Under the pieces are notes generated by a model. The model was not told the origin of the DNA, searched no databases, and was given only the letters and a program-made list of their open reading frames with translations. Below are positions 5,533 through 50,652 of a stretch of DNA of 64,000 nucleotides, piece after piece (positions within the stretch are counted from its first letter, which is position 1; every line of letters starts with the position of its first letter). The translations under genes were made by a program, and so were the position numbers. Origin of the DNA: Paracyclopina nana (taxonomy: Eukaryota > Arthropoda > Copepoda > Cyclopoida > Cyclopettidae); assembly GCA_019096065.1 (NCBI GenBank), contig JAGUCH010000003.1:682001-746000 (forward strand), given 5' to 3'.

Positions 5533-5887
5533 CAGTGGATATGATCATATCCACCACCAAGTTGTTTATGTAAATTGTCAAAAACTTGCAAGGATGCATG
5601 GATGAAGCCCACGTGGCTGCTATACTCAATCTTCGTTTTTTAAATCATACATGTTGGCATGCACTCAGCTGAACATGGGACAAAATCACTTGAATGGGTC
5701 AAGTGTGCCTAATGCGGCTGTTTGTGTTGCGGCCTCAGCTGAATTGCGTATGTGCATATGTTTACGGCCCCTATTTTCGTTTAGTGCACACCTTGGCCAT
5801 ATTTGCTCCATTCATTTGATGTTGCTGTTGTTGTTGCTGATCACAAAGAACTCCTCCACGTATGGGCAGCGTGGTGAATGAAGTGCA
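5533..5887. mobile_element. left part of a TIR element split by the LTR element
   Basis: Starts cagtggatatgatcatatcc and matches, as reverse complement, the sequence ending at 29888. The matching arms are about 260-280 bp each (5533 to about 5791 and about 29610 to 29888) with small indels. Removing the LTR element and one TGCA copy gives an original element of about 1,160 bp. The outer 20 bases contain the perfect palindrome gtggatatgatcatatccac. No target-site duplication was recognised outside the arms. Confidence 0.8.
5884..5887. repeat. target-site duplication TGCA, left copy
   Basis: TGCA directly abuts the LTR end at 5888 and is repeated at 29080-29083 directly after the other LTR end at 29079. 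A 4-bp duplication fits integration by a retroviral-type integrase of the Ty3/gypsy group. Confidence 0.8.
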
Positions 5888-6813
5888 TGGTGTGCGACGG
5901 TCACACCCTCTGAAGCCTAGGATGGTTAGCATCGGCTTCATGGTCGCGGTACCGTTCGCAGCCTCCGGGTGCTGGCCGGATGTCTACTCGCCTTGGACCC
6001 AAAGCCGCAGCCTCGGTGCTCCAACTCTGGCGAGATACATCACATGGCAAGCTTCAGTGCTGTAGACCAGTGATTGGGCCTCCTACCCACGTCCTCAACG
6101 GCCTCAACAGCCTCAGACTAGGGTGCATAACTGCCCAGGAAACCTCTATACAAGTTATGGTCGAACAAAGTCAAACAAGGTTGTCTTATTCACTCAGCTT
6201 TTAACACCACACAAATTAATGGCAGCAAATACAAAGAAATAAGTACTGCAGTAAATATTCTTGTGGCCATCTTCTTCATGCCTCAGCACACTTTGGAGAA
6301 CTTTGGTGGGACAATAGCAGGGCAGAGCTCACTCAATGGGCCATGTGCACTTGGTCCATGTCTTGTTTCTCTGAAGTCCCCCATCGAACTCCCCGAGTCT
6401 TCTCCTTCTTCTCCACTCGATGCATCGCAGCAAGTTCCATCAGCTTCCATCTGCTTCTCTCCGTTATCATGCAGCTGCAGGTCCTCTCTATGTAGCAGCT
6501 AGCAACTCCTCCACACAATGGCTAGCAACTTCTCCACTCAAGGTCAGGTGAATTGCCATAGGTAAGGCTCAACGCATAGGTAGTAGCAGCAGCAGCAGCA
6601 ACAATCAGAGAGTTGGAGGAGATGAAAAGGTGTTTTTTGAGAAGGGAGGTTTTGTGATTTTGAGGTGGTGATGTAGCGGTGAATGGGCAACCTTCCGGAC
6701 TTCTGGCGGCTCCACGGGCTCCACGGTTTCCACAGGTTCCACTGGAGGGGTCCAATCAAGTCCTATTCTGGTCGTAACGTGCACCAGAGACATGATGTAC
6801 TTATTGCCCATCA
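5888..6813 (-). repeat. 3' LTR of the giant element
   Basis: Matches 28154-29079 base for base wherever I compared, at a constant offset of 22,266. It is canonical TG...CA when read on either strand. It contains a short CAG/CAA-type trinucleotide run near 6585-6602. No splice-containing or coding sequence is supported inside it. Confidence 0.92.
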
Positions 6814-6917: not shown

Positions 6918-8804
6918 TTATACTAACGTCGCGCCTCCCAGGCCCCTCATTCGCACAGTAAGGCGCTGATTTTGGTCAGCATCTTTCTTGCGATCTCCTC
7001 TATTGTAGCGAAGCCGTGGGCGGGACGTATTAGGTCTCACATAGCCTCCATCATCATAACATCGGCTGCATACTCGCCGCCTTTTCCAAATCAATATGCC
7101 CATACACGTGAATCCCAGTGCTGCAGACAATAGGCTCACCGTCAGGATTATTTCCCAATTATTGAATAAACCTCCAAGTTCATCTTCAGGGAATTTTGTA
7201 AAGAACTTCACCATATCACTTTCCCAAGGAGAGTCCTCGTATCCAGTACTTTGAGTTCCAAGGGAAACCTTACAATTGCTAAGGATCTGATAGGATCCTG
7301 GTTCCAATACCACCGAGTTCTTGAAGTCATTTAAACAAGTCCTATTAATCATTGCACTTGAGACCAAATTTAAGAACCCTTTATAATTAGCACATCCCAC
7401 ATCAGTGAGCGTGTTAGTTTTAAGTGGCTCTAATTCACAGGCGTCAAAAGGGTCACCCAGAGCTAGCCCTAAAAGTACTTTAGCACAGTGCTGGACTCCT
7501 TCTGTCAAGTCAAAGTCCTTGTTTTCACACACGGTTAAATTATGGTCATGAACGAAGCAATCACTATAGATGGGTATTTCCCGAGACACAAACACTAGAT
7601 CATTTCGGCGGGTCAAATACCTATCATGCAGTAAGAATCCGTTTTTGCTTCGTGACACAATATGATATGTGACCTCAGGGGTAGGGTCCATTTCTTTATA
7701 CCCAACTATTCCCTGAGTGACAAAGTCTCCACTCTGCTCAGTGTTCGCCAAAGGTTCATAAACATTAGTAATGGTGGCCGCATTTCTGTCACTATTATGC
7801 GCCAGAGTTGGTAAGCTGAACCGTGTGCCTGCCTGCCCAAAATTTCTGGCAAATTGCACAACTGTGTCAGCATATGACAATACTTGCTGCAGATCATTTG
7901 GTAATAATCCAGACTTCAAAAATACCTTGCTAAAACCTTTCAGTAGTCGAAAGGCCAAAGAAACTTTCGGTGGTACTCTCAGTGGAGTGGTATTTGCTAT
8001 CATGCCATCGGTGAATTTTGTCGATTTACCTGATTCTGCTAGGGCCATCACGGCGTTGTAGGCCTTTTCAAGGAAGCTTTTCCTCCCAGACAATTCAGAT
8101 TTGACAAAGTCCTTATGGGTGATGACAAAGTCATTTTGAACACATATTGTTGCCTTCCCATCACTGTGTGGTGCATGGGCTTTAACTGACGTCATGGTCC
8201 TCGGCCCTTGTCCCACAGTGAAATACCCCGTGATACACGGGTAACCTGCAATTATCTCATCATCCGGTTCTTTTTCATACCCCACTTGAGGAAATGTGGT
8301 TTTCCCATCCAAGGACATAGGTACCTCATTGACGATCCGAAACTTTACACATAAAGTTACCTTAGTGGCAAGAGGGCTTTCCTTTGCCGTATAACGTAAT
8401 AGTTCTAGAAAAACGTCCATGTCTTCATAAGTTTTAGGGGCAAATGGTACAAACCCTTGACGTTTGGAACAAGCTTTGTCGATGGTGTTAGGGGTACTCT
8501 CTTCTCCAACTGCCAACATATTCCCAATATGGACCAAGTCCTCCTTGTCCTTAACTTCTTTTACCACGGTGTCAATATTATTCAGGACGCCAATTGTTGA
8601 TTGCAAAAGGCCACTGTAATCCTTCGTATCTAACACCATAGCCTTTTTCACCATTCTAGGATGATGGACCACTCTAACTGGAACTAGGGCATGTCCGGAA
8701 TGGCAAAGTGCCTCATCCAGTACGAACTGAGTATTTGGGTAGTTGGACAGGCCCCAAGTGCCAGATCCCAAAAGGGTGAGTATGAAGGCCAATTCAAACG
8801 ACAT
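6918..8804 (-). CDS. envelope-like type I membrane glycoprotein (ORF5)
   Basis: 628 residues in one open frame. An N-terminal signal peptide (about residues 1-19) is followed by a roughly 530-residue ectodomain with many scattered cysteines and several N-x-S/T sites. A single transmembrane helix lies at about residues 552-573, then a 55-residue tail that is strongly basic and begins with KRRR and a CSRC pair. It is the last sense gene before the 3' LTR, the position of env in retroviruses and errantiviruses. No clear furin site or fusion peptide was seen and I do not recognise the fusion-protein class, so the envelope role is inferred from topology and position only. How its mRNA is made (splicing from the LTR or an internal promoter) is not evident. 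Confidence 0.7.
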   Translation of the reverse strand: MSFELAFILTLLGSGTWGLSNYPNTQFVLDEALCHSGHALVPVRVVHHPRMVKKAMVLDTKDYSGLLQSTIGVLNNIDTVVKEVKDKEDLVHIGNMLAVGEESTPNTIDKACSKRQGFVPFAPKTYEDMDVFLELLRYTAKESPLATKVTLCVKFRIVNEVPMSLDGKTTFPQVGYEKEPDDEIIAGYPCITGYFTVGQGPRTMTSVKAHAPHSDGKATICVQNDFVITHKDFVKSELSGRKSFLEKAYNAVMALAESGKSTKFTDGMIANTTPLRVPPKVSLAFRLLKGFSKVFLKSGLLPNDLQQVLSYADTVVQFARNFGQAGTRFSLPTLAHNSDRNAATITNVYEPLANTEQSGDFVTQGIVGYKEMDPTPEVTYHIVSRSKNGFLLHDRYLTRRNDLVFVSREIPIYSDCFVHDHNLTVCENKDFDLTEGVQHCAKVLLGLALGDPFDACELEPLKTNTLTDVGCANYKGFLNLVSSAMINRTCLNDFKNSVVLEPGSYQILSNCKVSLGTQSTGYEDSPWESDMVKFFTKFPEDELGGLFNNWEIILTVSLLSAALGFTCMGILIWKRRRVCSRCYDDGGYVRPNTSRPRLRYNRGDRKKDADQNQRLTVRMRGLGGATLV

Positions 8805-9167: not shown

Positions 9168-10415
9168 TTAGCGTGCAAAATGTCTGGTCCATTCGTTCCT
9201 GCGCCAAAAGGGCGCCCGCGCTACATCGGCGTACAGTCTAGGTCCTCGCCTTGGTTTTTGTTGCCAAGACTTCTCCACAAACGCGGCTAGTTTTTGGGGC
9301 CTGGCCCCGGCTGTGTACCTCACGCATTGCGGATATGTCCCAATGGCTCGATCGACAAACTGGGCTACCATGGTAGGCAGGAGTGCGGTCATATCGATCT
9401 TCACGTCCAATTTTCGTGGTGCTTGAGCCACGCCATTGTTAAGGCAGGACGGCGGTCCCACATACAGTTGCACGTAAGGCGACGTCAAATCATGGAACAT
9501 CCGCGGATCCCAAAATGATGAGTCCAATGTTGGCATGATCTGAATGCAGCCTCGCTTGGTATAATGTTTGGAGACTACTACAGGGAGTTGAGCTCCACCC
9601 TGTCCACGGATTCCATGCACATAATACCCAACAGCTGTTGGGCTCTGGACGGCAGACCAACTCCTGACATTGGCCAACTTATGGACATTCTCGTCATATT
9701 CCATCTTGTCAGGCAAGTTGTAGACTGGTAGATTGTCTAGCATCGGAAATATAACAAGAAAATCGGGAATCTCCCCTCCTTTACTCACTGGCTCGATAAT
9801 CAATTCAATGCAGTCAAAGTTTTTCACCTTCAATGGCCTACGAGGCTCGGTCCGTTCATAGGGTTCTCCATTTATCCTAATCGTCAGGTCAAAAGGCACC
9901 TCCTTTCCAACAGTCATGACCTCTTTCGTAGCTATCTTCAACAGGCTTGCATCATAATGCTGCTGTATAGTAGCTCTGGTCCGGCTCGCCTCCCTCGCAT
10001 AGGCCTGTAGACCCTCCATGTGGGGAGGCCTGATCAAATCCTCAAATGGCAATGGGTACCCCAAACTGGAGGATACCCTTTCCAATGGGACCTCGAGGGG
10101 TTCCTCTTGGTCCTGGTGCCTAGTCGTCTGATTCTGGGCTTGGTTCTCAATATTGACAGCAGGCATGTTGCGATCCATAACTGGCTCATCATCCTTTAGG
10201 AGCTCACTAACCTCTTGTTCGTTGAACTCTCCAGTCTTATCAGTCTCCATCATAGAGACCAATGCAGATTCTCCTTCCATGGATTCGGTGATCAGAGACA
10301 TCCTTAGATTATCGAGGCTATTCAAGCTATCGCTCATTTCCAGACTGTTGCTGTAAGGCCGTAACCTGCCCTTTTTATACACATCTTTACAGGTATGCCC
10401 CACACTCTCGGGCAT
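9168..10415 (-). CDS. 415-aa retroelement protein of unknown function (ORF4)
   Basis: One open frame of 415 residues on the element's sense strand. Residues 1 to about 120 are acidic, Ser/Glu/Gln-rich and probably disordered. About 120-340 looks like a folded domain with mixed hydrophobic and charged segments. The last 60 or so residues are strongly basic, with an Arg/Lys/Trp-rich end. There is no signal peptide or membrane helix. A basic tail on an internal protein would suit RNA binding or a matrix-like role, but that is speculation. It is transcribed divergently from the plus-strand gene at 10702, with 286 bp between the start codons. I do not recognise a family. Confidence 0.65.
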   Translation of the reverse strand: MPESVGHTCKDVYKKGRLRPYSNSLEMSDSLNSLDNLRMSLITESMEGESALVSMMETDKTGEFNEQEVSELLKDDEPVMDRNMPAVNIENQAQNQTTRHQDQEEPLEVPLERVSSSLGYPLPFEDLIRPPHMEGLQAYAREASRTRATIQQHYDASLLKIATKEVMTVGKEVPFDLTIRINGEPYERTEPRRPLKVKNFDCIELIIEPVSKGGEIPDFLVIFPMLDNLPVYNLPDKMEYDENVHKLANVRSWSAVQSPTAVGYYVHGIRGQGGAQLPVVVSKHYTKRGCIQIMPTLDSSFWDPRMFHDLTSPYVQLYVGPPSCLNNGVAQAPRKLDVKIDMTALLPTMVAQFVDRAIGTYPQCVRYTAGARPQKLAAFVEKSWQQKPRRGPRLYADVARAPFWRRNEWTRHFAR

Positions 10416-10701
10416 TTAAATGCGTGGGTTGTCCCTTTTAAAAAACCCAAGGTCATTTTTTGTCTAGGTAAAAAAGAACAAGTTAACAGGACTTATACCA
10501 CTTCCTTATAAGATGGGCGCGTGCGCGCACGCTCACCGTCGAGTTGCACGGACATTTTTGACTTCCTAGGTCGAGAAACGTAGCGAGGGTGCAACAGGCA
10601 GTTGCAACTCTCAGCTTTCACTTAATGTTGATCATTCTCCCATCGGACTTCGTCCAAGCTGGTCACTTTTCTAGAGATATTCCAATCCCAATCAACTCGC
10701 G
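10416..10701. promoter_or_regulatory. divergent promoter region between ORF4 and antisense gene A
   Basis: 286 bp between two start codons pointing away from each other. It contains the palindromic GC-rich block gcgcgtgcgcgcacgc at about 10509-10524 and short runs such as cttataag on either side. By position this must carry the start signals of antisense gene A and could also serve ORF4. No unambiguous TATA box was assigned. Confidence 0.5.
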
Positions 10702-11753
10702 ATGGTCATTTTAGCCTGGGTTTCTCTAACTCCAGAGGGCAGCTCTACAGAGGCTCCCACTGAGGTTCCAATCCAGCCATCAATGGTGGATCCTGCGCTA
10801 GTGGATTCTCAAACCACGGGCCCAGTAAGTCCTACTGTTGCTATTCCTGAGAGTGGCATTTCTGAAGCCGAGGGTGGACCTGGATTTGGCCCAGCTCCTG
10901 TCGACCCCTTTGAAGTGGAGGTGTTTGACCCCCGAGATTTAATGCCAGCGGTACCAAATGGTTATCGTCCCATTGCCCCTCAGAGGGACTGGATCGATGA
11001 GGTTTTCAATTACCACCGATACGGTGTAATGGGATGGATCGGTCTTGGAGCGTCCATTGGGATGGCTTTGGTAAGTTCAACCTTATAACTAGTTTTGCAA
11101 CTATGGCCAAACTTTTATTTACCACCTTCTTTCTTACAGATTTTGCTTGGCATGTTGGTGTACTTCTGCGTGTGGACGTCACGATGGTGCCGAGGGTTCG
11201 TGGCCACGTTTCGAGCTATCCGTACGGAATCAGCGGCTGCCAGTGGAGCCATGCAAATGCTTCCCACAAAGGCCCCATCAGAGCATGCAGCGGTATTTCA
11301 CTGCTGTACCCCAGAGGTCCGAGCTTTGCCACCAGCCCCGATTATGCGTGACCCTGATGTCCATTCGCTCCAAATGGCAATGGCTGCCATGGACCCCTAT
11401 GGAACACTACGCCGGAATCCCAGCATCATGTCCGGGCTGGCCCACATCTATGACGTCCCTAATCCCAAGGGCTGGGTAAGGACCTATCAATTTATGAACT
11501 GTAAACAGGTTACTCATGTACTCTTTTTCATGCACCTTTTCAGGTACCTGTTACTGAAGGGTGCGGGCCGCGGACTTTGAAGAGACGATCTCGCCGGGCT
11601 CGAGCCCGAGATAACCGTCGCTTGGATTCGGCAGCAGATTCCATTCCGGACAAAGACGAAGTCAATGAGGCTGAACCTCTCTCAATCGCAGATGAGGACC
11701 AGGATTCGGCTGGATCAAAGGCTTCCCAAGACGTCAACAGCGATGCCAACTAA
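10702..11753 (+). CDS. antisense gene A: spliced single-pass membrane protein
   Basis: Three exons: 10702-11070, 11140-11475 and 11544-11753, joined in phase 0 through two 68-69-nt introns with GTAAGT/TTACAG and GTAAGG/TTTCAG junctions; 304 residues ending in TAA. The N-terminal half is Pro/Thr/Glu/Ser-rich. A hydrophobic stretch at about residues 109-135 spans the first exon junction and is followed by WTSRWCR, giving a single-pass protein with a basic juxtamembrane segment. The C-terminal exon has an Arg-rich cluster, then an acidic tail. It lies opposite in sense to gag-pol-env inside the LTR element. An AATAAA at 12146 could end its transcript. I recognise no family; a captured host gene or an accessory viral membrane protein are both possible. 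The exon structure is well supported because all three frames join only when spliced. Confidence 0.75.
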
Positions 11754-12234
11754 GGATCGCCACAAACTTATTGCAAGACGAGAAACGCTCTCTTTTCGCA
11801 CGTATTTAAGCGCGTTTTCTGTAACTTTTGCACTTTGTTCTTCTTATCGCGTGCCAATTCTCACTTTATACTTGCATTTCCCGCAGTCTTCGCGGACTTT
11901 TCCGCTTTTTCGAGATCTCACAGACTTTTCGAGGCTTCGCAGACTTCTTTAAAGCCGGCTTTTTGCACTTGCACTCGTCTTGTTTTTATTTTGATCTCAA
12001 AGCTTCCAATATACTCGAGTATATACTATAGTACTTGTATTCTATATATATGTAATAAGGAATTCGACTTCAAGTGGGGTAGCAGGTATTAGCGAAGCCG
12101 TTATCTTCATCTGACAGCGCTCCCAGGCTTTACGTAGAGGCGCGTAATAAAAAGAGGCTTTTTTACACGAAACTTGGCCGATTTCAGACCAGATTTTTCT
12201 GGTAGCGCGCCTTGTTTACTAAAAAGTCCAAAAC
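11754..12234 (+). other. 3' untranslated region of gene A and promoter of gene B
   Basis: No coding sequence is supported. It contains Phe/Cys-rich spurious frames, a run of TATA-like steps near 12010-12050, and a poly(A) signal at 12146. Confidence 0.4.
12146..12151 (+). terminator. AATAAA poly(A) signal after antisense gene A
   Basis: Perfect AATAAA about 390 bases after the stop of antisense gene A and about 85 bases before the start codon of antisense gene B. Its position suits the end of the gene A transcript. Confidence 0.5.
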
Positions 12235-12780
12235 ATGGCGGGCTTCCTACACGGCTTGTTCGTAAGTTTTTTTTTTTTTTCGATTAAAATCCGGTGAATC
12301 CTTTCGCTAAACTGTATCTTTTTCATTGGGAATGCAGAATCCTTCTACAACAACGGTGGCGCCAGCCACCGAGGCTCCCGTAGGGGCGCCCCCCGCGGCC
12401 GAGTCCGCGGCGGGGTGGCCCCAGCCACCTGCGGCCCCGCCCGCAGCCCCTTTGGGCCATCAGGAGTGCCCTCCCTGCCCCGTTCAGGGCTTCGTAAGTG
12501 CATTATTCGTTATCTATTTGGTCAAAGCTCGAAAGCTCGACTTTTTCTCGTATTGCAGGCCGAAGAGATCCTCTAGGGCGTGGCCCTGAATGTGGCAGGG
12601 GCGGCCACCTATTATTTGGTGGCCCTGCCCGCCCTCGCCTGGGTCCACCGGGCCAGGCCCAGGGGCCTGTATCGGCTCGTCAGCCGGGTGTGGGACGAGC
12701 CCACGGACCTGCCCAGGGTCTCGGCCTGGGTCCTCCACCTGTTTGTGGGGGAGGAGGACCCCCTCGAAGGAGTCGTCTAG
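12235..12780 (+). CDS. antisense gene B: GC-rich spliced small membrane protein
   Basis: A 9-codon first exon (12235-12261), then 12338-12493 and 12577-12780, joined in phase 0; 128 residues. Residues 10-61 are Pro/Ala/Thr-rich with a CPPCP motif. A hydrophobic segment at about 62-84 is followed by HRARPR, so again one membrane pass with a basic inner flank, the same plan as gene A. The second intron has two possible acceptors: CTCTAG at 12576 gives the protein described, while an upstream TTGCAG at 12558 adds six codons ending in an in-frame TAG and truncates the product before the membrane helix. The coding part is far richer in G+C than its surroundings. AATAAA follows at 12943. No family recognised. 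Confidence 0.65.
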
Positions 12781-12942
12781 TAAGTCTAACTTATTCATTT
12801 AAGCTATCACAGCTTCACTATATTCGCCTTATCTTTTGCAGAAATCGTCTCGTTATCGGTAGGCCACCGCACCGGCCAGGGCTGGCCCCAACGTGGCCCA
12901 AGGCCAGCCCGCCCCCCTCGCCAGGAGGCCTCCCATTGGGAC

Positions 12943-12948
12943 AATAAA
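12943..12948 (+). terminator. AATAAA poly(A) signal after antisense gene B
   Basis: Perfect AATAAA about 160 bases past the gene B stop. A further possible small intron, 12780-12841, precedes it. Confidence 0.55.
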
Positions 12949-14786
12949 GTCCACGTTCATTGTACTTTTGTGTCTACTGTGTTTACCGCAACTCATTTCG
13001 CGTTTACCTCAGCAGATAGCTCAGCCTTATGAAGCTCAGCACCTTTCTAGTCAAGTTCAGCAGTTCATTATCATAGCCAAGCACATTTCGAGCCCAATTT
13101 TTTACATTTCATGGCCAAAAGGACCGTAGACCATATCTCAGGTGTCAAGAATTGCATTTTAATTGCATAATTAATCATTAGCGAATCATTAGCGGCCCAA
13201 ATCCACAGATTCGGGCCTGTAAATAAGCTAGCATTCCAGCTCGACCTTGACGGCCTTGACACTGCAAACGATGCTTCAATGTTCAAGAAAAGCGTTTACT
13301 ATAGCCCTGCATTCCAGCTCGGGCTTGATGCAGCACCATATTTGAGTGTCTGCGATTACTACCGGCCAAGCGTTGGTGCTTATGGGCTACCAATGCCAAT
13401 TTGGCATCCTTTTTTCCTTGGGCATTCCGGCTCGGCCTTGAGTGCGGCGAAGGAAACGTAGTCCCTACAGGACTGGAAAACCGGCCGTATGTCATTGCAC
13501 ATAGCAAAAGCAAGCTCAAGCACTAGGCAATGGCACAATATTCTTTTCCATATCAGGCTAGAAGACGTGTATTTTTCATTTTCTCACATGTCAGTCTACA
13601 ATGTGTGCTGACCTAGCTTGTTTTGCTAGTGCTGTGTTTAGCGTAAATTGAATTCTCCACCAAAAAAGAGGGGATTCATGTGGCAACTGCAAGATAGCCA
13701 CATTTCAGCACTTCTTTTATTTAACAATATGCCTAATCTTTGTGCACTTTGAACCTTTTCTTCTGTTAGTCCATCTGGCGATCATTAGCGGTATCATTAT
13801 AACATTAGTCATTTTCATTCTCTTGACTTTTATGCAACGTTTTATTTTATTCCTTGTACCCGCCTAATAAATCCCGGAATTTGGGTCACCACTCGAGTCA
13901 AGTATGGCCATTTTTGAGTTTAGATAAGTTCAAAAACCTTCCCAGGTGAATTGTAGGTGCACCGGCGGTTCCACTCTTCATTGTTTGTTTTAGCCTTGGG
14001 CAAAACGTTTTTAGTTCGTGGTTAGGCGCATGGTGGCGCCACCATTCTACATCTCCAAGCGAAGCCGCTCAAACTGGATTTTTCTAGTGTGGGAGCGTCT
14101 CTGGATTTTTGTTCCATAACAACTTTTTGCCCCCCTTGGAGTCGGGTATCTGTTCGACAAAAGCTGGCTCAGCGTCTTTGCGCAATGCAACTCACATTTC
14201 AGTCTATCTTGCTCAAATGTTTTTTGTCTAGCCATTTTGAACAGACTCATAGATTATGTTTTATCTGTTATCACTGACTTGCATAGCTATTATAGCATTA
14301 TAGCTCTGCATTCCAGCTCGGTCTTGATGCGTGCATCAAGTTCGGGTGCTCATAACCGAAATTAATTTAAAAGATTGAGGTTGTCAGCACCGATCTTTTC
14401 AGCTAATTTCGGTTAGCACTAATAATAATATATGAAGCAGATTTTGCGACATTTATGTGCTAGTGTTCAGGTTTATAGTTTTGTGTAGTCGTTTGCCATA
14501 TCCAGTTTTTTCTAGAAATTTTGTTTACAATACTTTCTCAGAGCACGAGGGCGCTCAAATTTTGTGAAATTTTTGGGGCGCAGGCTGCATTTCCTGCGGC
14601 TACGTATATATACTCCCCCCTCCACAATTTTCTGCATTTTGTGGGAACTGCAGTGAGCAGTCACACAAAATTCAGGTAAGTATGTTTTCGAATCTTTTAC
14701 TATAAAAGATCTTATCGGCTAGGCTAATTTTATTCAATGTTATTTAAACGATGGCGCCCGTGGGCACCATCCATGATATCAATAAC
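12949..14786. other. noncoding part of the element with dispersed short repeats
   Basis: No supported gene. Four related copies of gcattccagctcggccttga occur at about 13231, 13310, 13421 and 14303, all in the same orientation. A TATA-like box (gtatatata, about 14605) and a second one (ctataaaag, about 14699) both point to the plus strand. The second is followed by an ATG at 14751 and a GTAAGA at 14800, and the first by a CAG/GTAAG donor at about 14674. A third antisense transcript may begin here, but I could not follow its exons. Confidence 0.4.
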
Positions 14787-16326: not shown

Positions 16327-19300
16327 CTATTTAAACTTCTTAAAAGCTAGCTTGTATAGGTCATCATAGGTGAGACGCAGCCGCTTCATTTCATTTATGT
16401 TGCTATCATCTTGGTGATCCATGCCAGTCGCTTTAAGAAACTGAATATAATCAGGGACTGCAGCCATGTTTTTATTCAGTTTCCAATTAGGAACTACCTC
16501 TTCTAGTAACTCTCTCTCTTTTTGGTCTGGCCTTTGGTTCGTATTTGTAAACCTAACACGGGCGAATTCCTTGTCCTCCCGATCTAAAGGAGCTATTCGT
16601 GGAATATTAGGGAAGTATTTTTGTTCTTTGCCAGCTTTACTTTTCTCTTTCCCATACTTTCTTATGCCCGCTAACCTTCTGTAATCTACAGTTTCTTTTC
16701 TCTCCCGCAGTTGTCGTCTGGGAAGGATCCGTATTGGAGTGGGCTCACTAATCTCAGGTTCAACTGTTGGTTGGACAGCGGCCGAGGATTCTGGTTCCTT
16801 TGGTTCGGCGAATGATGTGGCTGCCGAACTACTCGGCTGGTCAGAAGACACCAAAAGGTTCGTGTCAAGGAGCTGTTGAACATTCTGTGAAGGACTTGTA
16901 TCCTGTTCAGTTGTCAATGCTGCTTCGGAACGAGTCAATGCTTCAGAGGGATCAGGCTGAGCAATCGCAGGAAGACCCGCAGGTACGTTCTTTTTATTAT
17001 ACTTTTGAAACCCTGCCAGGGAGCGATAATTAACGTTTTTTCTTCTTCTTAGGTTATGAGGAAGAAAACTTAATGGAGACAACTTTTCTGGTTCATACGG
17101 AGCCCGTACAACAGCCTCAGGTGGCTTCTGAGTACCCGGTTGTGGAACTACTGGGCCAGTTTGCCTGACAGTGGGGTGTGCAACCCCAGGAGTAGCTTGA
17201 TGAGTAAGGTGCTCCTTTTCAGTCATAGCCAGGTCACCCAAAGGTGTAACCTTTGCCGAGGGGTGCTCAAGTACGTTTGTGCTTGGCACAGTTTGTGGTA
17301 CTCCCGCATTTGGTAACTCACTATTTTTTGGTTGCAAATCAGGTTTTCTGACCGGATTTTTCATTATAGTATACCGAACTTGAGGCTCCCCTCCTTCAGC
17401 TCCATAAATCTCCGGTTTCGGGGCACTGGGCCCTTCCATAGGATTATCGATTGGTGGAGAGGGAGGCCGTTTACGTGGTGAGAGTTCTAACTGGCGTCGT
17501 ACAATATTGATTGCTTTTTGAACATTCTGTTTAATGCTTTTTGTCAACGGTGTACGCCGCAGATTTTTACGAGCAGTATAATAAATTGTAGTTGTGTCAT
17601 CACTATCACTACTTTCATTTTCATCATCGTGTGTATTTCCGCCGAATGGATCAGTAGGCAGTGCTAATTGCATACTTTCCAGGCCAGCAGATAAAGATTC
17701 TAGGTCAGTGTCAAATTTGGAAGGTGCGATGAAAGATGCTGCTTTTTCAACAATATCCTCTATATTATCATTGTCCTTATTAGGAGTTGCAGACATACTT
17801 TGGTCAGGAGTGTGATATTTCTCCGGACTTTCAGGTATATCTGGCACACGTTGATCACGGTATTGGCCACGAAAGGCCCACTTTACAGGGCTGACCCCTG
17901 CAAGTGTCCCTTCACTGACGTTCGAGCGATCAGGAGTACTAATATGGTCAGGTTTGACACTTGGTAAATTCGGGTATAATCTTTCTTGTTGGGCCATTTC
18001 AGCAAAAGTAGGAGGGCCACGTTGGCTCAAGGCCAGCATGTCCTCATAAAATGCTTCATTGGGCCCTGTATTTGCACTTAGTGCAATTGCTTGTTCAATA
18101 AAATCATCAGTGCCGGTGTCAGACAAAGAATCACTTGCTTCTTTGTGGAGAATATTATTACCAGCATTGTCAGCTAGGTATTTTTCTTCTAACTTCTTAC
18201 GGTCATATTGTTCCCACTGCTTTTGCACGAGTTGTTTATTTTCCTCCTGTATTCGCAAAATATCTGAGGGCTTAAACAAGCTCGCTGCCTTTTGCATGAG
18301 GATAGAACCAGAGCGCTTATAGGTTTGGTGAATCGCACTTGGCTCTGTGTCCATTGATGTGGACTGTGAAATCAATGAACTTTGCGAGGCCACTATACTA
18401 GAGGCCTTTGTATGACCCCGCAAACTATAATCATGACTTTCAGGGGCTGCCCCTTCAAGAAATTCGATAACCTCATTCCTTGCTTTTTTACGTAGAATTT
18501 CTTCCGGAGTGTAAGGTCGTTTCAAGAGGTTGGACAACTTTTCCGGAAGAAATCTATATAGTTCATGGAATCGATATAACTTGACATGATCTAAGCTTAC
18601 TTCACGAGTAAGCCCATCATAAAGGTATGGCTTTACAGTCACAGTCGAATGCTGTCCAATGTCAATAACTTCAAACAAATCATCCATAAATTTATACCGT
18701 TGTTTATTTATGGGATGTTTTATAACTAACACTAATGATCCAATCTCTGGTTTAAAGGAAGGTCTTTCAGTAGCCTTCATTTTTTCTAAGTGGAACTGTT
18801 CTTCTAGATCATATTCACGCATGCGTTGACGCCATTCGGCTTTATGAATTTTGTCCTCGCTTTCACTAAGTATTTCAAATACATCCCGTCCTAAATGATA
18901 GAACGGCATTTTATCGAAAAATAACGAAAAAGGTGTGGGGGTGATCTTCACCCCTTTATCATCAGTATATGCCAAATAAGTAAGAGGGCGATTATTTATT
19001 GCGTAAATAGAAGTCTTAAACACATCGCATAACCTCATATTGTATGAGTTAGAGTTTAGGACTAATGCACTCCTTATTATTCGTATAGCATTTTCAGCGT
19101 AAGCGTTCGAATGCTTGTATGGCGATAAAGTTCGGTAATGACATAACTCCTTAATTTTATAACGATCAACAAGGCGTTGGAGGGCCTTATTAGTCGTTAG
19201 CTGGGCACCATTATCTGCAAGTAATGTTTTTGGCACCCCAAACAAAGAAATTACTTCTTCCATAGCATTCGCTACCTGCTTATATTTAGCATCCAATAGT

Positions 19301-22300
19301 GGTTTAGCAATTATCATCTTAGAATAAACATCGACAAATACTAACAGGTCTTTTGCGGAAGACCCTTTGACTAAAGTGTCATCGAACTTGGCCAAATCAA
19401 TCATTACCAATTCCCATGGCTGAGTCGGGATGCGGAAACGCCCCTTCCCAACAAACCTAGTATTAGCTTGGCGGTATAAAGCACAATGCATGCACGCACC
19501 AATAATAATACGACTGATTCTGGCTGAGTAAGTTGAATACATAGATTGGGTAAAAAGAGTATTAGTCTTTTTACTTCCCAAATGGTTATGTAGCAAATGA
19601 ATACATGCCATCAGGTACACACAGTTGGGCATACTCATATATACTTTCGTATTGGTCGCAACGCTAAAAGGTAACTTTACATTCTTGCGAATGACCAACA
19701 GGGCACCGTCAAGGACACGATATTTTACCGCAACATCTAGTGGTACTTTCTCTGGAGGCGAAAGCATAATTAGATTTATTATCTTTTGTGTTTCTTCACA
19801 ATTTTGTTGCAACTTAATGAGTAGGTTGCGTGTAATTCCAGGTAAATGTGGCGATATTCGCCGTTTAACAGTGACTGTATCTACTCTTAAGTTATTTTCT
19901 ATATGATTCACTGGCGAATCAAAATCAGCTTCACCATGAAATGAATGGGATAATTTAGAAAGTATCTCGTCCTCAAGATATTCATCATCATCATGTTTTG
20001 CTTGAAGTAAGGTTGACGTGTCGTCGTGCACAAATGGCGGCTTCGTGCCGATCATGTCAACCCATTTGTCATTTAGGCAATGCAACCTTTTCTGGAGTAG
20101 AGTCTTACTCATAGTTCCAGAATTCACAAGTGTATCATACACGTGTGTAAGTAATTCCTGGGTTGTAAGCACCTTATCTTTGATCGCATCGGGTAGAGGG
20201 TATTTATTTGAATAAATATCCTTAGTAATCTGTCCCGCAATAGAGTAAGGCGCATAAAATACAGTTTCACCTTCTGGTGTTTGATGGTATTTATTTAATA
20301 ATACATCAACTACTTCTACCTCTGTGCGAGGTACAGCCCTCAATTTCCATGCTACAGGCAGGGAATAAATACGAGCTGCTAATCTATGAGTAAATGCATC
20401 TTTACCAGTAAACGAACTAGCAAGTACGCTAGCGATAGATAAGCAATCAGTAACTATTACCAACCGCTCATAAGCGAATAGTATGCTTTTAAAATGGTTT
20501 ATCATTGTTAAAACTCCTAATGCTTCACGTTGAAATGAGTGGTATGAGAGGCAAACCGATAGAGGAAAGCGTGCGCTGTGTGCACCAACACACACAGCTT
20601 TCCCATCCTCATTCACCTCCATTAATAAGGCTGAAGTACTTATTACCCCAGAATCAACCACTAAATAACCTTCTTTAAAACGTGGTAGTGCCAACGACAT
20701 ACCCGTTTTAATCTCGTCTATTACTTTATAGAAACATTTTTCCTGGAAAGCAGTGAAAGTGAATTTTCCTGCTTTTCCTTGCGCTGTTTGTAACACATCT
20801 AGCAATGGAGCTGTGTATGTAGCCATATTAGGACAGTACTGGCTTAACCAGTTTGTCATTCCAATAAACTTTTGCAGCTGTTTCTTGGTTGTGGGAATAG
20901 GGAAATCATCAAATGCAGACCTGAATTTATCGGGCATTCGCATAGTCATAATCCCATTTTCGTCAATAGATATTAGGTGCCCTAAGACTGTAGCTTCTTT
21001 AACACCTAATTGTGTCTTTTTAATTTGTAATAGGGCATTTAAGTCCTTGAGGCTTTGAAACAACTTCCTCAGATCACCTAAATGTCGTATGTAATCATCC
21101 AATGTAGCAGGCCTAGGCTTGCCAGGGTTCTTACAGGCCACAACCAAATCGTCTACATATACACATGTAAAGGGCAATATCTCAGGGTTAAGGGCCTGTT
21201 GGAGGAGCTCTGCGAACATTCTCGGAGCAATGGCGATCCCTTGTAGGCATGACTTACTTTTCAGAAAGACTGATCTATATATACTGCGAGGGGACGTTAC
21301 TGCAAAGCAGCACATATCAGCACTATCAGAGTCCACAGGTAAGTTATCGTATCCGGATGTTACATCGAAAGATGACATTAAACACGAATTAGATAACATC
21401 CCTAGCAAGGTAGGGATAGGTGGCACTATGTGCTCCGAAGTCGTAAATATCAGATTTTTATTAAAAGATGTTAAGTCAACTAGTAGCCGAGGCTTGCGTT
21501 GCTTCATAGGCAGCTTTTCATCATTTGGCCTTGAAGTCAAGAAACAAGGGCAAGCCGAGTACCTATTAAGTGACTTATCCACAATTTCAATTAATCCAGA
21601 TGACAGCATTAATGCTATTTTACGGTCAACCTGCGTAGTTTCATACTCCGACATGTTAAATACTTTTGGCACTAATGGTTTGTCATCCTTTAACTGGAAC
21701 TTCATGGGTTCGACATTCCATAGCCTATATGATCTAGGATCCTCCGAGAATATAGTCTTATATTCTATTAAGAGGTCCCTAAAGTCTTCTCTGACCTCAT
21801 CCGGAATGTGTTCTAGATCCATGTTCAGGATCGTTTCTGGTTTCAATGGAAATGTATAACCTGCTACTCCATTTAAAACACGGAGGGGGTCAAATTCACT
21901 TGGAAATTTCAAAAGGAGATTATAAACCTCATCATATAGTTTTTGGTTATTTCTCTCATCTTTAGAAAGCTCCAGGCTAGCTGATACGAGGTCTAGTTCA
22001 GAAGGACTTTTTAGAACTGTTTGACTGACACTGGTATCCACAATAGGACCTTCGTAAATAGTAGTGAAGCTCTTAAGTGGCACTTTGATGCCCATGTTCT
22101 TTGCCAAGCAAGGCTTGCACGAGCAACCATGTGGTTCAAGTACAAATGGTATAAATTTACCAAATTTTGTCTTTATATCCTCTTTGGTAAGGTCATCAGG
22201 GTACATTTGTAACCCAGATAACACTAGCAATGCAGCGGTGGTTGCCATACAAAGTGGGTCACCTACATGCACATCGCCATCCATAAGTGTTCTGATCCAC

Positions 22301-22890
22301 ACGTCGTCGGCCACATTTTGGTACCGTAATTGACCAATTATTATGTACATAAGCGTGGTTAAGTAGCCAATATTCTCAGCATGTTCGCTAGGGACATGGA
22401 ATATTAACTCAACATTGTTGGACAACTTAAACATGATACCATGAGCTCCAAGAACATTTAGTTCAAAATACTTATCTAGTTCATTTCTTTGATAAGCAAG
22501 GGGGTAATTCTCATACTCATGTATCATCATAGTTATTATGACCCTATCCATCCCATTGAGGTAGGATTCAATAGGACACAAGGCAATGGTCATGCATGGT
22601 GGGCAAATATACTTATATTTTAGCCATACTACTTTGAGTTTATCCACCATCATATTCATCTTTATTACAATGCGCTTTTGTTCGCCAGACAAAAGTTTAT
22701 GCCCTGGGACAATAACAGCCCACGGTAATTCATCCCATTTTTCTCGTTTCATAAATTTGCTAATTATCACATCAGTTATCTCTTCGTAACCATCACTTTG
22801 GTTAGCTGAGATAAATACGTAATTTCCTTTTCTACTAATCAAGGGCTTGTGGCTTCCCCTTAATGGCTCATAGGCATTGAAAAATGCATA
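16327..22890 (-). CDS. pol: pol polyprotein: RT, RNase H, integrase with long extensions
   Basis: More than 2,170 codons (numbering from the first TTG at 22842). Residues 1 to about 380 form a region of unknown function with a CSCKPC motif. Reverse transcriptase lies at about 380-640 with catalytic D493 and YVDD at 562-565. RNase H follows with D730, E773 and D799. The integrase has an HHCC zinc finger (H1082 or H1085, H1087, C1117, C1120) and catalytic D1149, D1210 and E1250. The last D and E are 39 residues apart instead of the common 35. About 800 further residues follow: a GPY/F-like stretch, then acidic and Pro-rich disorder containing two copies of a basic LRxRK-YR-LAG-KY motif at about 1931 and 2045. 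The frame is -1 relative to the protease ORF, is open from 22890 and has no ATG, so expression by frameshift or coupled reinitiation is likely. Confidence 0.9.
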   Translation of the reverse strand, partial: YAFFNAYEPLRGSHKPLISRKGNYVFISANQSDGYEEITDVIISKFMKREKWDELPWAVIVPGHKLLSGEQKRIVIKMNMMVDKLKVVWLKYKYICPPCMTIALCPIESYLNGMDRVIITMMIHEYENYPLAYQRNELDKYFELNVLGAHGIMFKLSNNVELIFHVPSEHAENIGYLTTLMYIIIGQLRYQNVADDVWIRTLMDGDVHVGDPLCMATTAALLVLSGLQMYPDDLTKEDIKTKFGKFIPFVLEPHGCSCKPCLAKNMGIKVPLKSFTTIYEGPIVDTSVSQTVLKSPSELDLVSASLELSKDERNNQKLYDEVYNLLLKFPSEFDPLRVLNGVAGYTFPLKPETILNMDLEHIPDEVREDFRDLLIEYKTIFSEDPRSYRLWNVEPMKFQLKDDKPLVPKVFNMSEYETTQVDRKIALMLSSGLIEIVDKSLNRYSACPCFLTSRPNDEKLPMKQRKPRLLVDLTSFNKNLIFTTSEHIVPPIPTLLGMLSNSCLMSSFDVTSGYDNLPVDSDSADMCCFAVTSPRSIYRSVFLKSKSCLQGIAIAPRMFAELLQQALNPEILPFTCVYVDDLVVACKNPGKPRPATLDDYIRHLGDLRKLFQSLKDLNALLQIKKTQLGVKEATVLGHLISIDENGIMTMRMPDKFRSAFDDFPIPTTKKQLQKFIGMTNWLSQYCPNMATYTAPLLDVLQTAQGKAGKFTFTAFQEKCFYKVIDEIKTGMSLALPRFKEGYLVVDSGVISTSALLMEVNEDGKAVCVGAHSARFPLSVCLSYHSFQREALGVLTMINHFKSILFAYERLVIVTDCLSIASVLASSFTGKDAFTHRLAARIYSLPVAWKLRAVPRTEVEVVDVLLNKYHQTPEGETVFYAPYSIAGQITKDIYSNKYPLPDAIKDKVLTTQELLTHVYDTLVNSGTMSKTLLQKRLHCLNDKWVDMIGTKPPFVHDDTSTLLQAKHDDDEYLEDEILSKLSHSFHGEADFDSPVNHIENNLRVDTVTVKRRISPHLPGITRNLLIKLQQNCEETQKIINLIMLSPPEKVPLDVAVKYRVLDGALLVIRKNVKLPFSVATNTKVYMSMPNCVYLMACIHLLHNHLGSKKTNTLFTQSMYSTYSARISRIIIGACMHCALYRQANTRFVGKGRFRIPTQPWELVMIDLAKFDDTLVKGSSAKDLLVFVDVYSKMIIAKPLLDAKYKQVANAMEEVISLFGVPKTLLADNGAQLTTNKALQRLVDRYKIKELCHYRTLSPYKHSNAYAENAIRIIRSALVLNSNSYNMRLCDVFKTSIYAINNRPLTYLAYTDDKGVKITPTPFSLFFDKMPFYHLGRDVFEILSESEDKIHKAEWRQRMREYDLEEQFHLEKMKATERPSFKPEIGSLVLVIKHPINKQRYKFMDDLFEVIDIGQHSTVTVKPYLYDGLTREVSLDHVKLYRFHELYRFLPEKLSNLLKRPYTPEEILRKKARNEVIEFLEGAAPESHDYSLRGHTKASSIVASQSSLISQSTSMDTEPSAIHQTYKRSGSILMQKAASLFKPSDILRIQEENKQLVQKQWEQYDRKKLEEKYLADNAGNNILHKEASDSLSDTGTDDFIEQAIALSANTGPNEAFYEDMLALSQRGPPTFAEMAQQERLYPNLPSVKPDHISTPDRSNVSEGTLAGVSPVKWAFRGQYRDQRVPDIPESPEKYHTPDQSMSATPNKDNDNIEDIVEKAASFIAPSKFDTDLESLSAGLESMQLALPTDPFGGNTHDDENESSDSDDTTTIYYTARKNLRRTPLTKSIKQNVQKAINIVRRQLELSPRKRPPSPPIDNPMEGPSAPKPEIYGAEGGEPQVRYTIMKNPVRKPDLQPKNSELPNAGVPQTVPSTNVLEHPSAKVTPLGDLAMTEKEHLTHQATPGVAHPTVRQTGPVVPQPGTQKPPEAVVRAPYEPEKLSPLSFLPHNLRRRKNVNYRSLAGFQKYNKKNVPAGLPAIAQPDPSEALTRSEAALTTEQDTSPSQNVQQLLDTNLLVSSDQPSSSAATSFAEPKEPESSAAVQPTVEPEISEPTPIRILPRRQLRERKETVDYRRLAGIRKYGKEKSKAGKEQKYFPNIPRIAPLDREDKEFARVRFTNTNQRPDQKERELLEEVVPNWKLNKNMAAVPDYIQFLKATGMDHQDDSNINEMKRLRLTYDDLYKLAFKKFK

Positions 22891-24329
22891 TCAGTAAAAG
22901 AAAGACCATTTATATCCGTAAACTGCACAATTACGTGCGAATCCAAATAATTGCAGTAACATGACTCCATTTCATGCTCCAGGGCCTTTAAACTAATGTT
23001 AGCCACATGGGCTGCAACCGTACTCTTAAATTTCTGTTTCTTGACAATCCTGGCTCGCCCAATCACTGCATGTGCATTTAAGTAGATGGGATCCTCAGTA
23101 TTATTCCCAATATTTACTGGGAAAGTACCTTTACGAGTGACTGCAGTAAGTGCCCCCTCAGAGGTCACTCCGCGGTACTCGTTACTAGGCATAAAGTTTA
23201 AGTACTTATCCACCAATCCGGAATAAACATTTCTCTGGTGATGAGTACGACCAAGGTCGTCATCTTCGTCAGAGTCAGAATCTATTTGGATGTCATTACT
23301 GATGACAGGTAAATCATGAGGTAAACTAGCCATGGTGGTCACTTCTTCTCCAGGGAGTAGAGTGATCCCTTCATTTATTGCAACTGGGTAGAAAGCCTCT
23401 TTTGATAGTAAGAGTGGAATTTTCTTATGTTTGGACTTTCCAGGGAAATCCATAAAGTGCTTTCCATCTTTACTAGTCATCCGGACATTATTGTCCACTA
23501 ATAACGAGTTTCCTATCATTAATAGTGTATCGCAATCAGATACAAGGAAAACAGCCTGTCTGATTAAAACACGATTCCCAAATGCAACTTGAATAGAGAC
23601 AGCTTCATTCCCTGGGAATTCTTCCCCATTAAAGTTCTTAATTACATAATTAGTTTCGACCCGAGGTAGAGTGTAACCAATTTTGTCTTCGATCAGTTTT
23701 ACAAGAGTGCGTGATATTATCTGCACCATTGCTCCACTGTCAAATAAAGCATGCAAACGTATTTTTCCAGTTATCTCCACTGGTATAAAATACCTTTCAC
23801 AAACATTATGTAGTTTTAATGAGTATATACTCAGCACGTCATCTTCAAGTTCCGGATTCGGTAAAGGTTCAAAATGTGTTACTGGCTCTGCTTCATTAGC
23901 ATTTACTGAGGCCAGATGTGTAACGATACCATCATTACTACAAGTTTTTTGCTCATCACTCGTGCTACCTTTTACAAAGTAGTACCATAAAGCTATTATT
24001 GCTCCACTACAGATTACTGTAATTGGCCAATAATTCCAACCAAATAAACAATATTGACATATTGTTATTACAATCAGTATTATGCTAATCTCATTCACAG
24101 TCATAGTATGCTGAGGGACAAACCGACTTTTTCTACCCCTTATTGCAAGAACCAGAGCCTTTTCGTCCTTACTTCCACGAGTCATAATTTCAGCATTTTT
24201 TACAGATTGCTCCTTTAAATAATCAAAGTAAGCTCGTCCTACTTCTTTGTTACATTCTCCCCTCATAAATGAAGGCAAGATGTAACTATCTTTATCATTC
24301 TTATTGGGAGTTTTTGTACTTGGTCCCAT
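22860..24329 (-). CDS. retropepsin ORF with N-terminal membrane segments
   Basis: 489 residues. The retroviral aspartic protease signature DSGA sits at residues 197-200 within the hydrophobic context LHALFDSGAMVQ. It is preceded, unusually, by two hydrophobic stretches at about 81-98 and 102-119 which should anchor or hairpin the protein in a membrane. The ATG at 24329 overlaps the gag stop as TAATG, so ribosomes ending gag can restart at once. The 3' end overlaps pol by about 31 nt in the -1 frame; no textbook X-XXY-YYZ heptamer in the right frame was seen there. The protease would mature Gag and Pol. The membrane segments are read directly from the sequence; their use in placing maturation at a membrane is inference. 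Confidence 0.8.
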   Translation of the reverse strand: MGPSTKTPNKNDKDSYILPSFMRGECNKEVGRAYFDYLKEQSVKNAEIMTRGSKDEKALVLAIRGRKSRFVPQHTMTVNEISIILIVITICQYCLFGWNYWPITVICSGAIIALWYYFVKGSTSDEQKTCSNDGIVTHLASVNANEAEPVTHFEPLPNPELEDDVLSIYSLKLHNVCERYFIPVEITGKIRLHALFDSGAMVQIISRTLVKLIEDKIGYTLPRVETNYVIKNFNGEEFPGNEAVSIQVAFGNRVLIRQAVFLVSDCDTLLMIGNSLLVDNNVRMTSKDGKHFMDFPGKSKHKKIPLLLSKEAFYPVAINEGITLLPGEEVTTMASLPHDLPVISNDIQIDSDSDEDDDLGRTHHQRNVYSGLVDKYLNFMPSNEYRGVTSEGALTAVTRKGTFPVNIGNNTEDPIYLNAHAVIGRARIVKKQKFKSTVAAHVANISLKALEHEMESCYCNYLDSHVIVQFTDINGLSFTDMHFSMPMSH

Positions 24330-28153: not shown

Positions 28154-29079
28154 TGGTGTGCGACGGTCACACCCTCTGAAGCCTAGGATGGTTAGCATCG
28201 GCTTCATGGTCGCGGTACCGTTCGCAGCCTCCGGGTGCTGGCCGGATGTCTACTCGCCTTGGACCCAAAGCCGCAGCCTCGGTGCTCCAACTCTGGCGAG
28301 ATACATCACATGGCAAGCTTCAGTGCTGTAGACCAGTGATTGGGCCTCCTACCCACGTCCTCAACGGCCTCAACAGCCTCAGACTAGGGTGCATAACTGC
28401 CCAGGAAACCTCTATACAAGTTATGGTCGAACAAAGTCAAACAAGGTTGTCTTATTCACTCAGCTTTTAACACCACACAAATTAATGGCAGCAAATACAA
28501 AGAAATAAGTACTGCAGTAAATATTCTTGTGGCCATCTTCTTCATGCCTCAGCACACTTTGGAGAACTTTGGTGGGACAATAGCAGGGCAGAGCTCACTC
28601 AATGGGCCATGTGCACTTGGTCCATGTCTTGTTTCTCTGAAGTCCCCCATCGAACTCCCCGAGTCTTCTCCTTCTTCTCCACTCGATGCATCGCAGCAAG
28701 TTCCATCAGCTTCCATCTGCTTCTCTCCGTTATCATGCAGCTGCAGGTCCTCTCTATGTAGCAGCTAGCAACTCCTCCACACAATGGCTAGCAACTTCTC
28801 CACTCAAGGTCAGGTGAATTGCCATAGGTAAGGCTCAACGCATAGGTAGTAGCAGCAGCAGCAGCAACAATCAGAGAGTTGGAGGAGATGAAAAGGTGTT
28901 TTTTGAGAAGGGAGGTTTTGTGATTTTGAGGTGGTGATGTAGCGGTGAATGGGCAACCTTCCGGACTTCTGGCGGCTCCACGGGCTCCACGGTTTCCACA
29001 GGTTCCACTGGAGGGGTCCAATCAAGTCCTATTCTGGTCGTAACGTGCACCAGAGACATGATGTACTTATTGCCCATCA
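28154..29079 (-). repeat. 5' LTR of the giant element
   Basis: 926 bp, matching 5888-6813 without a difference noticed. TG...CA ends. Right flank TGCA at 29080-29083 completes the target-site duplication. Confidence 0.92.
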
Positions 29080-29083
29080 TGCA

Positions 29084-49939: not shown

Positions 49940-50157
49940 GATCGATCTCGCTTCACTATTATTGACTGGATCAAAATGAACGAATATCAGCTGATATGGC
50001 AGCAGGCGGAGTGTTGCTGTGGTAGCTACTAATGAGAAGTGTGCCCAAAGTGGCTGTTTGTGAGTCCAATTGTCGATAAACAAAAAAGGTCCCCTGGTAA
50101 CGACTATTCAGCTGTTTTCAGAGGTGTTTTGTTTTGACTGCTGCTGCTTCTTGTGGT

Positions 50158-50602
50158 CAGGGTGACCAGATGTGGCTATTTATAGCCAAAGTGGCTATTT
50201 TTGACCCATGTGTGGCTACGGAAATTTAGGCCGAATAGCCATAGCCATTTGTGGCTATTTTTGAAAAGTCCGAAAATTTGATTTTTTTACTAAATGAACG
50301 CTTGAAAATCATGAAAAAAGCAGGGGGAAAAATTAAATTTTCAAAAACGGCTGACTTTTTTAAAAAATATTTTGCCACCAAAACTTGAAGAAAATGATTA
50401 TTTAATCCTTGCTTTCATCACAGCAATCCCAAAAATTGGATCAAATTTTCATAATAAATATTAGTCATTGTGAAAATTCCTAAAAATGTGGCTATTTTTC
50501 GCCAATTTGTGGCTATTTTGAGTCATTTTTCTTAGATAGCCAAACGTGGCTATTTTAGGGGAAAATCTGACTACAACCCGCTCAAATTGTCTGGTTACCC
50601 TG
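50158..50602. mobile_element. hAT-like MITE, short copy in the C2CD5-USP24 promoter gap
   Basis: Begins CAGGGTGACCAGATGTGGCT and ends CTGGTTACCCTG; shares most of its sequence with the ends of the copy at 31916-32977. It occupies 445 of the 713 bp between the divergent start codons of C2CD5 (49939) and USP24 (50653), ending 50 bp before the USP24 ATG. Confidence 0.8.
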
Positions 50603-50652
50603 TAATAAATAGCAGTGATCAGCGTGGCCGTCGTTGACTTTGAGCAGGGACA

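Follow-up and report, generated by a model that had tools for sequence, protein, structure and literature searches.

A predicted pair of intron-bearing genes on the antisense strand of a giant Ty3-like retroelement

The plus strand of a giant Ty3-like retroelement that carries an Env-like gene is likely to encode a spliced two-gene module, genes A and B, that lies opposite to the genomic RNA. The orientation of the module, the conservation of its introns, the selection on its proteins and its presence in three families of elements are read from the sequence; the existence and the splicing of A and B transcripts are what we infer. The antisense strand would carry an old, functional, intron-bearing module that is common to the three families, and it is judged to be old and functional because its introns and orientation are conserved across copies and families and its frames are under selection among the copies.

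The element occupies about 23.2 kb of the window, by which we mean the whole 64-kb stretch of DNA that was analysed, and its genes from gag to env are on the minus strand. Both LTRs begin with TG, end with CA and are 100% identical, and a TGCA target-site duplication is present at 5884-5887 and 29080-29083. The names gag and Env are positional labels, the Env-like ORF being named from its position and its membrane anchor.

5888-6813, minus strand: 3' LTR, 926 bp, TG..CA
6918-8804, minus strand: Env-like ORF, 628 aa; hydropathy 2.1 in its C-terminal membrane anchor
9168-10415, minus strand: ORF4, 415 aa in the window copy (ORF scan, copies compared)
16327-22842, minus strand: Pol, 2171 aa, in which RT, RNase H and integrase are followed by a long C-terminal tail (Pfam)
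22860-24329, minus strand: protease ORF, 489 aa, matched only weakly in Pfam (E 0.0014, under the cut-off)
24329-26893, minus strand: gag-position ORF, 854 aa, named from its position
28154-29079, minus strand: 5' LTR, 926 bp, identical to the 3' LTR

The Pfam matches of Pol are over the cut-off for RVT_1 (1e-12) and under it for RNase H and for the integrase domain rve (4e-7; 30.7 bits versus a cut-off of 32.6). The domain order of protease, RT, RNase H and integrase, with three of the matches under the cut-off, is the one expected for Ty3-like elements (Metaviridae), and the RT/RNase H part of Pol retrieves gypsy-type proteins in a protein search. The Pol type, the domain order and the two LTRs with their target-site duplication support the assignment to the Ty3-like LTR retroelements. 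By eye, the protease ORF has a hydrophobic segment ahead of its Ty3-like aspartic protease; an N-terminal hydrophobic stretch in the Env-like ORF was likewise seen by eye only. Neither the gag-position ORF nor the Env-like ORF has a Pfam match. In a search of 5.8 billion proteins, which needs shared 5-residue words, none of the 8000 scored candidates was a homologue of Env at E<=1. No solved structure was matched by sequence for Env, ORF4 or exon 3 of gene B, and no relative of Pol was found in IMG/VR with two peptide patterns.

The closest relatives of Pol outside its own genome are two proteins, P0006 (3373 aa) and P0007 (2547 aa), at 25-28% over the RT part. By eye, they share with the window's element a hydrophobic segment that precedes the protease, as well as a long tail at the C-terminus, and the three perhaps belong to a wider lineage of giant Pol proteins. 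The protease and Pol are two ORFs in the window, but 15 of the 22 scored Pol copies belong to one open frame that is about 2650-2670 aa long, in some cases with stops read through. The frame and length of ORF4 are as in the window in one of 21 copies, which is the window itself; 13 of the other 20 lack a stop within the window's length and seven have an earlier one. Outside the element, flanking host genes at 45870-58143 comprise C2CD5-like ORFs (45.9-50.1 kb) and USP9X-like ORFs (51.0-58.1 kb), one of the latter being 1493 aa long. Among six contig ends (L048-L053), two have TTAGG-like repeats, two have CTGGC-type repeats and two have neither; the TTAGG-like ends resemble arthropod-type telomeres, and the repeats are perhaps subtelomeric satellites. 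Together, the TTAGG-like repeats and the USP9X-like gene point to an arthropod as the probable host.

Genes A and B are plus-strand genes, located between ORF4 and Pol. The first-pass annotation had them reading against gag-pol-env, and this is borne out, the orientation opposite to the Ty3-like Pol being confirmed with Pfam. It had also counted four clean GT-AG introns; all four are intact in 40 of 40 copies, and the count itself has to be raised to five by the addition of 12780-12841. The stop codon of gene A is corrected to 11751-11753.

10702-11070, plus strand: A exon 1, the N-terminal region, ending inside the membrane segment (copies, selection)
11071-11139, plus strand: A intron 1 (40/40 copies; same place in L054, L055 and L056)
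11140-11475, plus strand: A exon 2, the remainder of the membrane segment and a tail with YDV (copies, selection)
11476-11543, plus strand: A intron 2 (40/40 copies; L054 and L055)
11544-11753, plus strand: A exon 3, a polybasic stretch and the stop (copies, selection)
12235-12261, plus strand: B exon 1, 27 nt (copies; L054 and L055)
12262-12337, plus strand: B intron 1 (40/40 copies; L054 and L055)
12338-12493, plus strand: B exon 2 (pN/pS 0.12)
12494-12576, plus strand: B intron 2, long form, the short form ending at 12558 (40/40 copies, splice-site listing)
12577-12780, plus strand: B exon 3, with a hydrophobic segment, a conserved C-terminus and the stop (selection, alignment)
12780-12841, plus strand: fifth intron, whose donor overlaps the B stop codon (40/40 copies; L054, L055 and L056)
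12943-12948, plus strand: AATAAA downstream of gene B (21/21 copies)

A DNA search of the element's own genome (92 Mb in 10 contigs), in which 40 of 73 candidates were scored, gave at least 40 copies of the module including the window, and the 39 other copies listed are 92-96% identical to the window's module. At least eight more close copies, outside this set, were seen in a protein search of the genome. Twenty of the 39 were compared as 10-kb pieces and 19 as the module only, and the tests on 21 copies refer to the window and those 20. The introns are indeed conserved in the other copies, a check that the first-pass annotation had proposed: all five keep their GT..AG borders in every one of the 40. 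Random disruption of the frames in other copies would, by the same annotation, have refuted the idea; the frames instead stay open in most copies and display selection. Four copies (L012, L036, L040 and L047) have a broken gene A and three (L012, L023 and L036) a broken gene B, which leaves 36 and 37 of the 40 intact. Among the same 21 copies, A is intact in 20, B in 19 and Env in 11.

When the 40 copies are compared in all pairs, the spliced plus frame has a pN/pS of 0.194 (A) and 0.208 (B), and the other two plus frames have at least 1.45. The minus frames have values of at least 1.49, except for one that mirrors the same third positions (A 0.25, B 0.35) and that holds 303 (A) and 166 (B) stops over the 40 copies. 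The exons taken singly (A 1-3 and B 2-3) give 0.11-0.28 in the spliced frame and more than 1.1 in the other two plus frames. For comparison, pN/pS is 0.155 for Env and 0.150 for ORF4 (21 copies). The copies are related and the pairs are not independent, and so the evidence is the contrast between frames and not a p value. The spliced A and B frames are under purifying selection at the protein level.

One could suppose that the plus-strand frames are a by-product of sense coding, of composition or of chance, and that the introns are coincidental motifs; after all, long antisense frames also occur opposite Pol, for example at 21119-21859. Such an origin is very improbable here and is already refuted as far as sequence can do so. 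It does not account for exon-specific frames under selection opposite to minus frames with 38-465 stops over 40 copies, in a region that is not covered by any sense ORF of at least 150 aa. It also fails to account for splice borders that stay intact in 40 of 40 copies while the lengths of the introns vary (67, 68 or 69; 64 or 68; 70, 71 or 76; 75, 76, 77 or 83 nt) by differences that are not multiples of three, nor for the same structure in the related element L054.

As a separate observation, exon 3 of gene B (12577-12777, 40 copies) falls into allele classes that are about 83-86% and 93-100% identical to that of the window. These classes are independent of the similarity of the surrounding exons, and so the copies are mosaics, as from template switching.

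Relatives of the module outside the main family were sought by tblastn with A and B in the same genome, and three were taken, L054, L055 and L056; such relatives are 54-74% (A) and 43-96% (B) identical. L055 has all five introns, and its A is 70-74% identical by exon. The Env of L054 is 45% identical to that of the window and is on the strand opposite to A and B. Its A shares a 61-residue stretch with the window A (30% identity, E 2e-7 in a single comparison) and its B is 56% identical; its five introns are at the window's positions, with A intron 1 inside the membrane segment, and the spliced frames are open. In L056, the A-like gene has an intron at the same spot inside the membrane segment, and B keeps exon 3 (42% identical to the window's), the UAG just ahead of it and the stop overlapped by a donor. 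The Pol of this element (L057) is on the opposite strand and is 48% identical over residues 300-1546. Two features of L056 count against our reading: the exon model of its A adds one intron at the 5' end and has none that corresponds to A intron 2, and the exon model tried for the 5' part of its B gave no open frame.

B exon 3 was found at 78 loci. Env is upstream on the opposite strand at 65 of them (63 within 6 kb) and on the same strand at one, which adjoins a neighbouring element; the Env search scored 70 of 121 candidates. The remaining 12 loci are without an Env match, and seven of these are the third family, in which Env was not found. Wherever a B locus has a Pol match within 8 kb downstream, Pol is on the opposite strand (22/22; the Pol search scored 22 of 557 candidates, plus L057).

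These counts bear on the idea that A and B are hitch-hikers, that is, a host gene pair or another mobile element that inserted and is of no use to the retroelement. The spliceosomal introns, the AATAAA signals and the divergent arrangement do resemble ordinary genomic genes, and an origin of A and B through capture of host genes is plausible. We nevertheless regard useless passengers as improbable, given the selection among copies and a place and orientation that persist at an identity of 45% for Env in one family and 48% for Pol in another. No stand-alone locus of A or B was identified, 66 of the 78 B loci having an Env match in the search that scored 70 of 121 candidates and Pol having been shown for one of the seven loci of the third family. 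The suggestion that the genes form an accessory module thus gains support from purifying selection and from conservation across families.

Retroelements normally lose introns because they are copied via RNA. We predict that A and B escape this loss by being transcribed opposite to the genomic RNA. The host spliceosome would remove the introns from the A and B transcripts. The gag-pol strand would be the one that is reverse-transcribed, and there the introns read CT..AC, would not be recognised and would be retained in new copies. A and B would be expressed only from integrated DNA, by plus-strand transcription. The argument that sense RNA shows these introns only as CT...AC and so retains them had already been made from the window alone, and it is now strongly supported: introns that can be spliced only in antisense have survived spread to tens of copies and across families, which implies that the copied RNA is that of the gag-pol strand.

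Some candidate signals for transcription and splicing are present on both strands. A TATA-like sequence is found about 190-215 bases upstream of gene B, and gene A starts 3.9 kb from the 3' LTR. Besides the AATAAA behind gene B, another stands at 12146. On the minus strand, a candidate 3' splice site at 10464-10469, just before ORF4, is conserved in 19 of 21 copies and probably serves as the acceptor of a spliced subgenomic RNA for ORF4/Env. Two copies, L020 and L021, share a deletion of about 62 bp (window about 10436-10497) that removes this candidate site. ARAGORN called a tRNA-Asn at 16729-16809 on the plus strand, inside the Pol frame on the opposite strand, which is probably due to chance. 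A six-frame scan of 21 copies for further antisense genes between 12.9 and 16.3 kb gave only isolated 90-nt windows or two neighbours (14080-14259).

It might be argued that the antisense RNA acts mainly as RNA, through dsRNA, small RNA or transcriptional interference, and that the proteins are secondary. In plant LTR elements and in retroviruses, antisense RNA has been discussed as a means of regulation (PMC7264820, PMC10186651). An antisense donor, CAG/GTAAGTAT, at 14676 on the plus strand is conserved in 21 of 21 copies behind a TATA-like box, TATATATA, at about 14605, present in all 20 copies listed, and the six-frame scan of 21 copies gave no coding signal behind this donor. The box and the donor (14595-14700, plus strand) possibly mark a third antisense transcript. 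Against a role mainly as RNA stands the purifying selection on A and B at the protein level, which makes such a role rather unlikely as the principal one; some action as RNA is compatible with the coding module that we favour.

A is predicted to be a single-pass membrane protein. It is 304, 279 and 322 aa long in the three families and has one membrane segment (hydropathy 2.2-3.3) followed by basic residues. By the positive-inside rule, their place after the segment suggests that the N-terminus of A is outside. By eye, the tail contains a basic stretch and, in all three families, Tyr-Asp-Val (IYDVP, IYDVL and TYDVE); of these three motifs only two align in register, and the corresponding residues of L055 read LYEV. 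B starts with an Ala/Pro-rich part and also has a hydrophobic segment and a conserved C-terminal region, with 23 columns invariant in six sequences. The hydropathy of the B segment is 2.14 in the third family and borderline in the window (1.57) and in L054 (1.53), and these borderline values count against our reading. So does the lack of a recognised domain in A and B and of a homologue of A: the window proteins had no Pfam match at E<=10, and the search of 5.8 billion proteins, which needs shared 5-residue words, brought up no homologue of A at E<=10.

One lead comes from Commissureless, a fly sorting receptor. The membrane and juxtamembrane part of the L054 A matches its Pfam family (PF15957) with E 6e-6 over 46 residues. 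The score is 26.9 bits for the whole protein, just under the cut-off of 27, and reaches 27.9 only for a cut piece; the match stops before the C-terminal half of the profile, and the likeness is limited to this stretch. None of ten pattern-preserving scrambles of the L054 A matched Commissureless, and the A proteins of the window, L055 and L056 gave no such match in Pfam. This stretch of the L054 A is also matched by DUF3149 (E 0.005), and the membrane adaptors SIT and GAPT, as well as Vpu, came up at chance level (E 0.13-0.35). A search for Commissureless itself did not find it in the own genome, nor in any of the 14 control genomes, and is therefore uninformative. Kinship of A with Commissureless is weakly indicated and is a lead only.

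It is a reasonable guess that A is a membrane adaptor that redirects other proteins, with its N-terminus outside, one membrane segment and a cytoplasmic tail carrying the Tyr-Asp-Val motif and the basic stretch. A and B together are possibly, and we say this with considerable reserve, accessory membrane proteins that influence how host proteins, or Env, are trafficked or displayed at the surface; they might, for example, limit re-infection of the producing cell. The roles proposed earlier, as receptor, superinfection or host-interaction proteins, are guesses of the same kind. Somewhat less probable is that A and B are components of the virion or of entry, as partners of Env made late, instead of modulators of the host. 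They do adjoin Env, B occurs in families with an Env match and A is a predicted membrane protein; expression in antisense, on the other hand, would set A and B apart from the late sense RNAs.

Gene B contains a second point of interest, at the end of its second intron. An alternative 3' splice site at 12558 has the better pyrimidine tract, and the splice-site listing omits the one at 12576. Between the two lies a cassette.

12559-12576, plus strand: 18-nt cassette GCCGAAGAGATCCTCTAG, which reads AEEIL-UAG in frame with exon 2 and whose final AG is the distal acceptor

Exon 3 stays in the same frame when it is spliced from the distal acceptor. The cassette is invariant in 40 copies; L055 shares all of it (18 of 18 nt), L054 differs at a single position (17 of 18 nt), and the version in L056 is shorter, 12 nt, with TAG at its end. 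Among the 40 copies, the codons at 12559-12600 vary only between AAT and AAC, and the remaining exon 3 is highly variable (pS over the whole exon 0.257). From these patterns we tentatively suggest that B may be made in two forms, a short one that ends at the UAG and a longer one with the hydrophobic segment, although the odds are somewhat against it. They could arise through a choice between 3' splice sites 18 nt apart or through readthrough of the UAG. The low variation near the UAG could in part mark a recombination boundary between the exon 3 allele classes, which counts against this suggestion. Predicted RNA folds behind the UAG are stable (z -3.2 and -4.8). An RNA structure common to the families was considered and dropped, as the pairs differ between families by eye, and these differing folds are also counted against our reading.

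Taken further, the antisense strand may be a dedicated, intron-shielded gene compartment of the retroelements of this lineage, in which codons of B are doubly used and splicing or translation sets the ratio of the short to the membrane-type form, a proposal to which we give a little less than even weight. If it is true, the conserved in-frame UAG of B serves twice, as a stop codon and, through its AG, as a second 3' splice site (or else it is a stop that is read through), the final stop shares bases with a splice donor, and B is an accessory protein whose two forms are made in a ratio set by the host. The overlap of UAG and splice site would then be a control point that can be tested.

The pair of genes, selected and with several introns, would illustrate how a retroelement can keep host-style split genes in the long term, and it would be a further case of antisense accessory genes, remote from HTLV and from plants. 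It also leads to the prediction that annotation of the gag-pol strand alone overlooks functional genes in LTR elements.

Several known systems resemble parts of this arrangement. The HBZ and APH genes of HTLV-1 to -4 are antisense to gag-pol-env and have spliced transcripts, which begin in the 3' LTR for HBZ and APH-2; HBZ, APH-2 and APH-4 are nuclear regulators and APH-3 is nuclear and cytoplasmic (PMC10186651, in the parts seen). Like these, A and B are protein genes antisense to gag-pol-env, with splicing in our case predicted from conserved splice sites. Unlike these, the two genes have five introns, include at least one for a predicted membrane protein and stand well away from the LTR, and the element is Ty3-like; the hosts of HBZ and APH are vertebrates and the host of A and B is probably not. 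Homology of the bZIP/APH type was not seen, the window A and B having no Pfam match at E<=10 and A having a membrane segment.

The plant aORF-3R, namely gene23 of Grande, RIRE2 and TRP28 of Retand, are antisense ORFs that most copies keep; a promoter of its own is reported for gene23, and some of the products are nuclear or DNA-binding (PMC7264820, PMC11963269, both from partial text). A and B share with them antisense coding between pol and the 3' LTR. The plant genes are described as ORFs, and neither main text (PMC7264820, PMC11963269) contains the word intron, whereas A and B are multi-exonic; A is moreover a predicted membrane protein, in an element with an Env-like gene. The TRP28 domain of the Retand type is absent from A and B (no Pfam match at E<=10). 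Giant gypsy-like LTR elements of animals can also carry extra genes, as in Burro and in the bdelloid rotifer elements with a captured ORF3, and the rotifer ORF3s are said to come from spliced messages; the parts of these sources seen contain no description of extra genes that, like A and B, are antisense and have their own introns (PMC6431247, PMC5408684). In the open-access PMC literature, as far as its texts were seen, no animal LTR element with intron-bearing antisense genes was found.

In conclusion, the arrangement of A and B appears to resemble that of the antisense genes of HTLV and plants, and by the tests run the proteins seem unrelated to theirs; what differs here are the several introns, the predicted membrane protein A and the Env-like gene in the same element.
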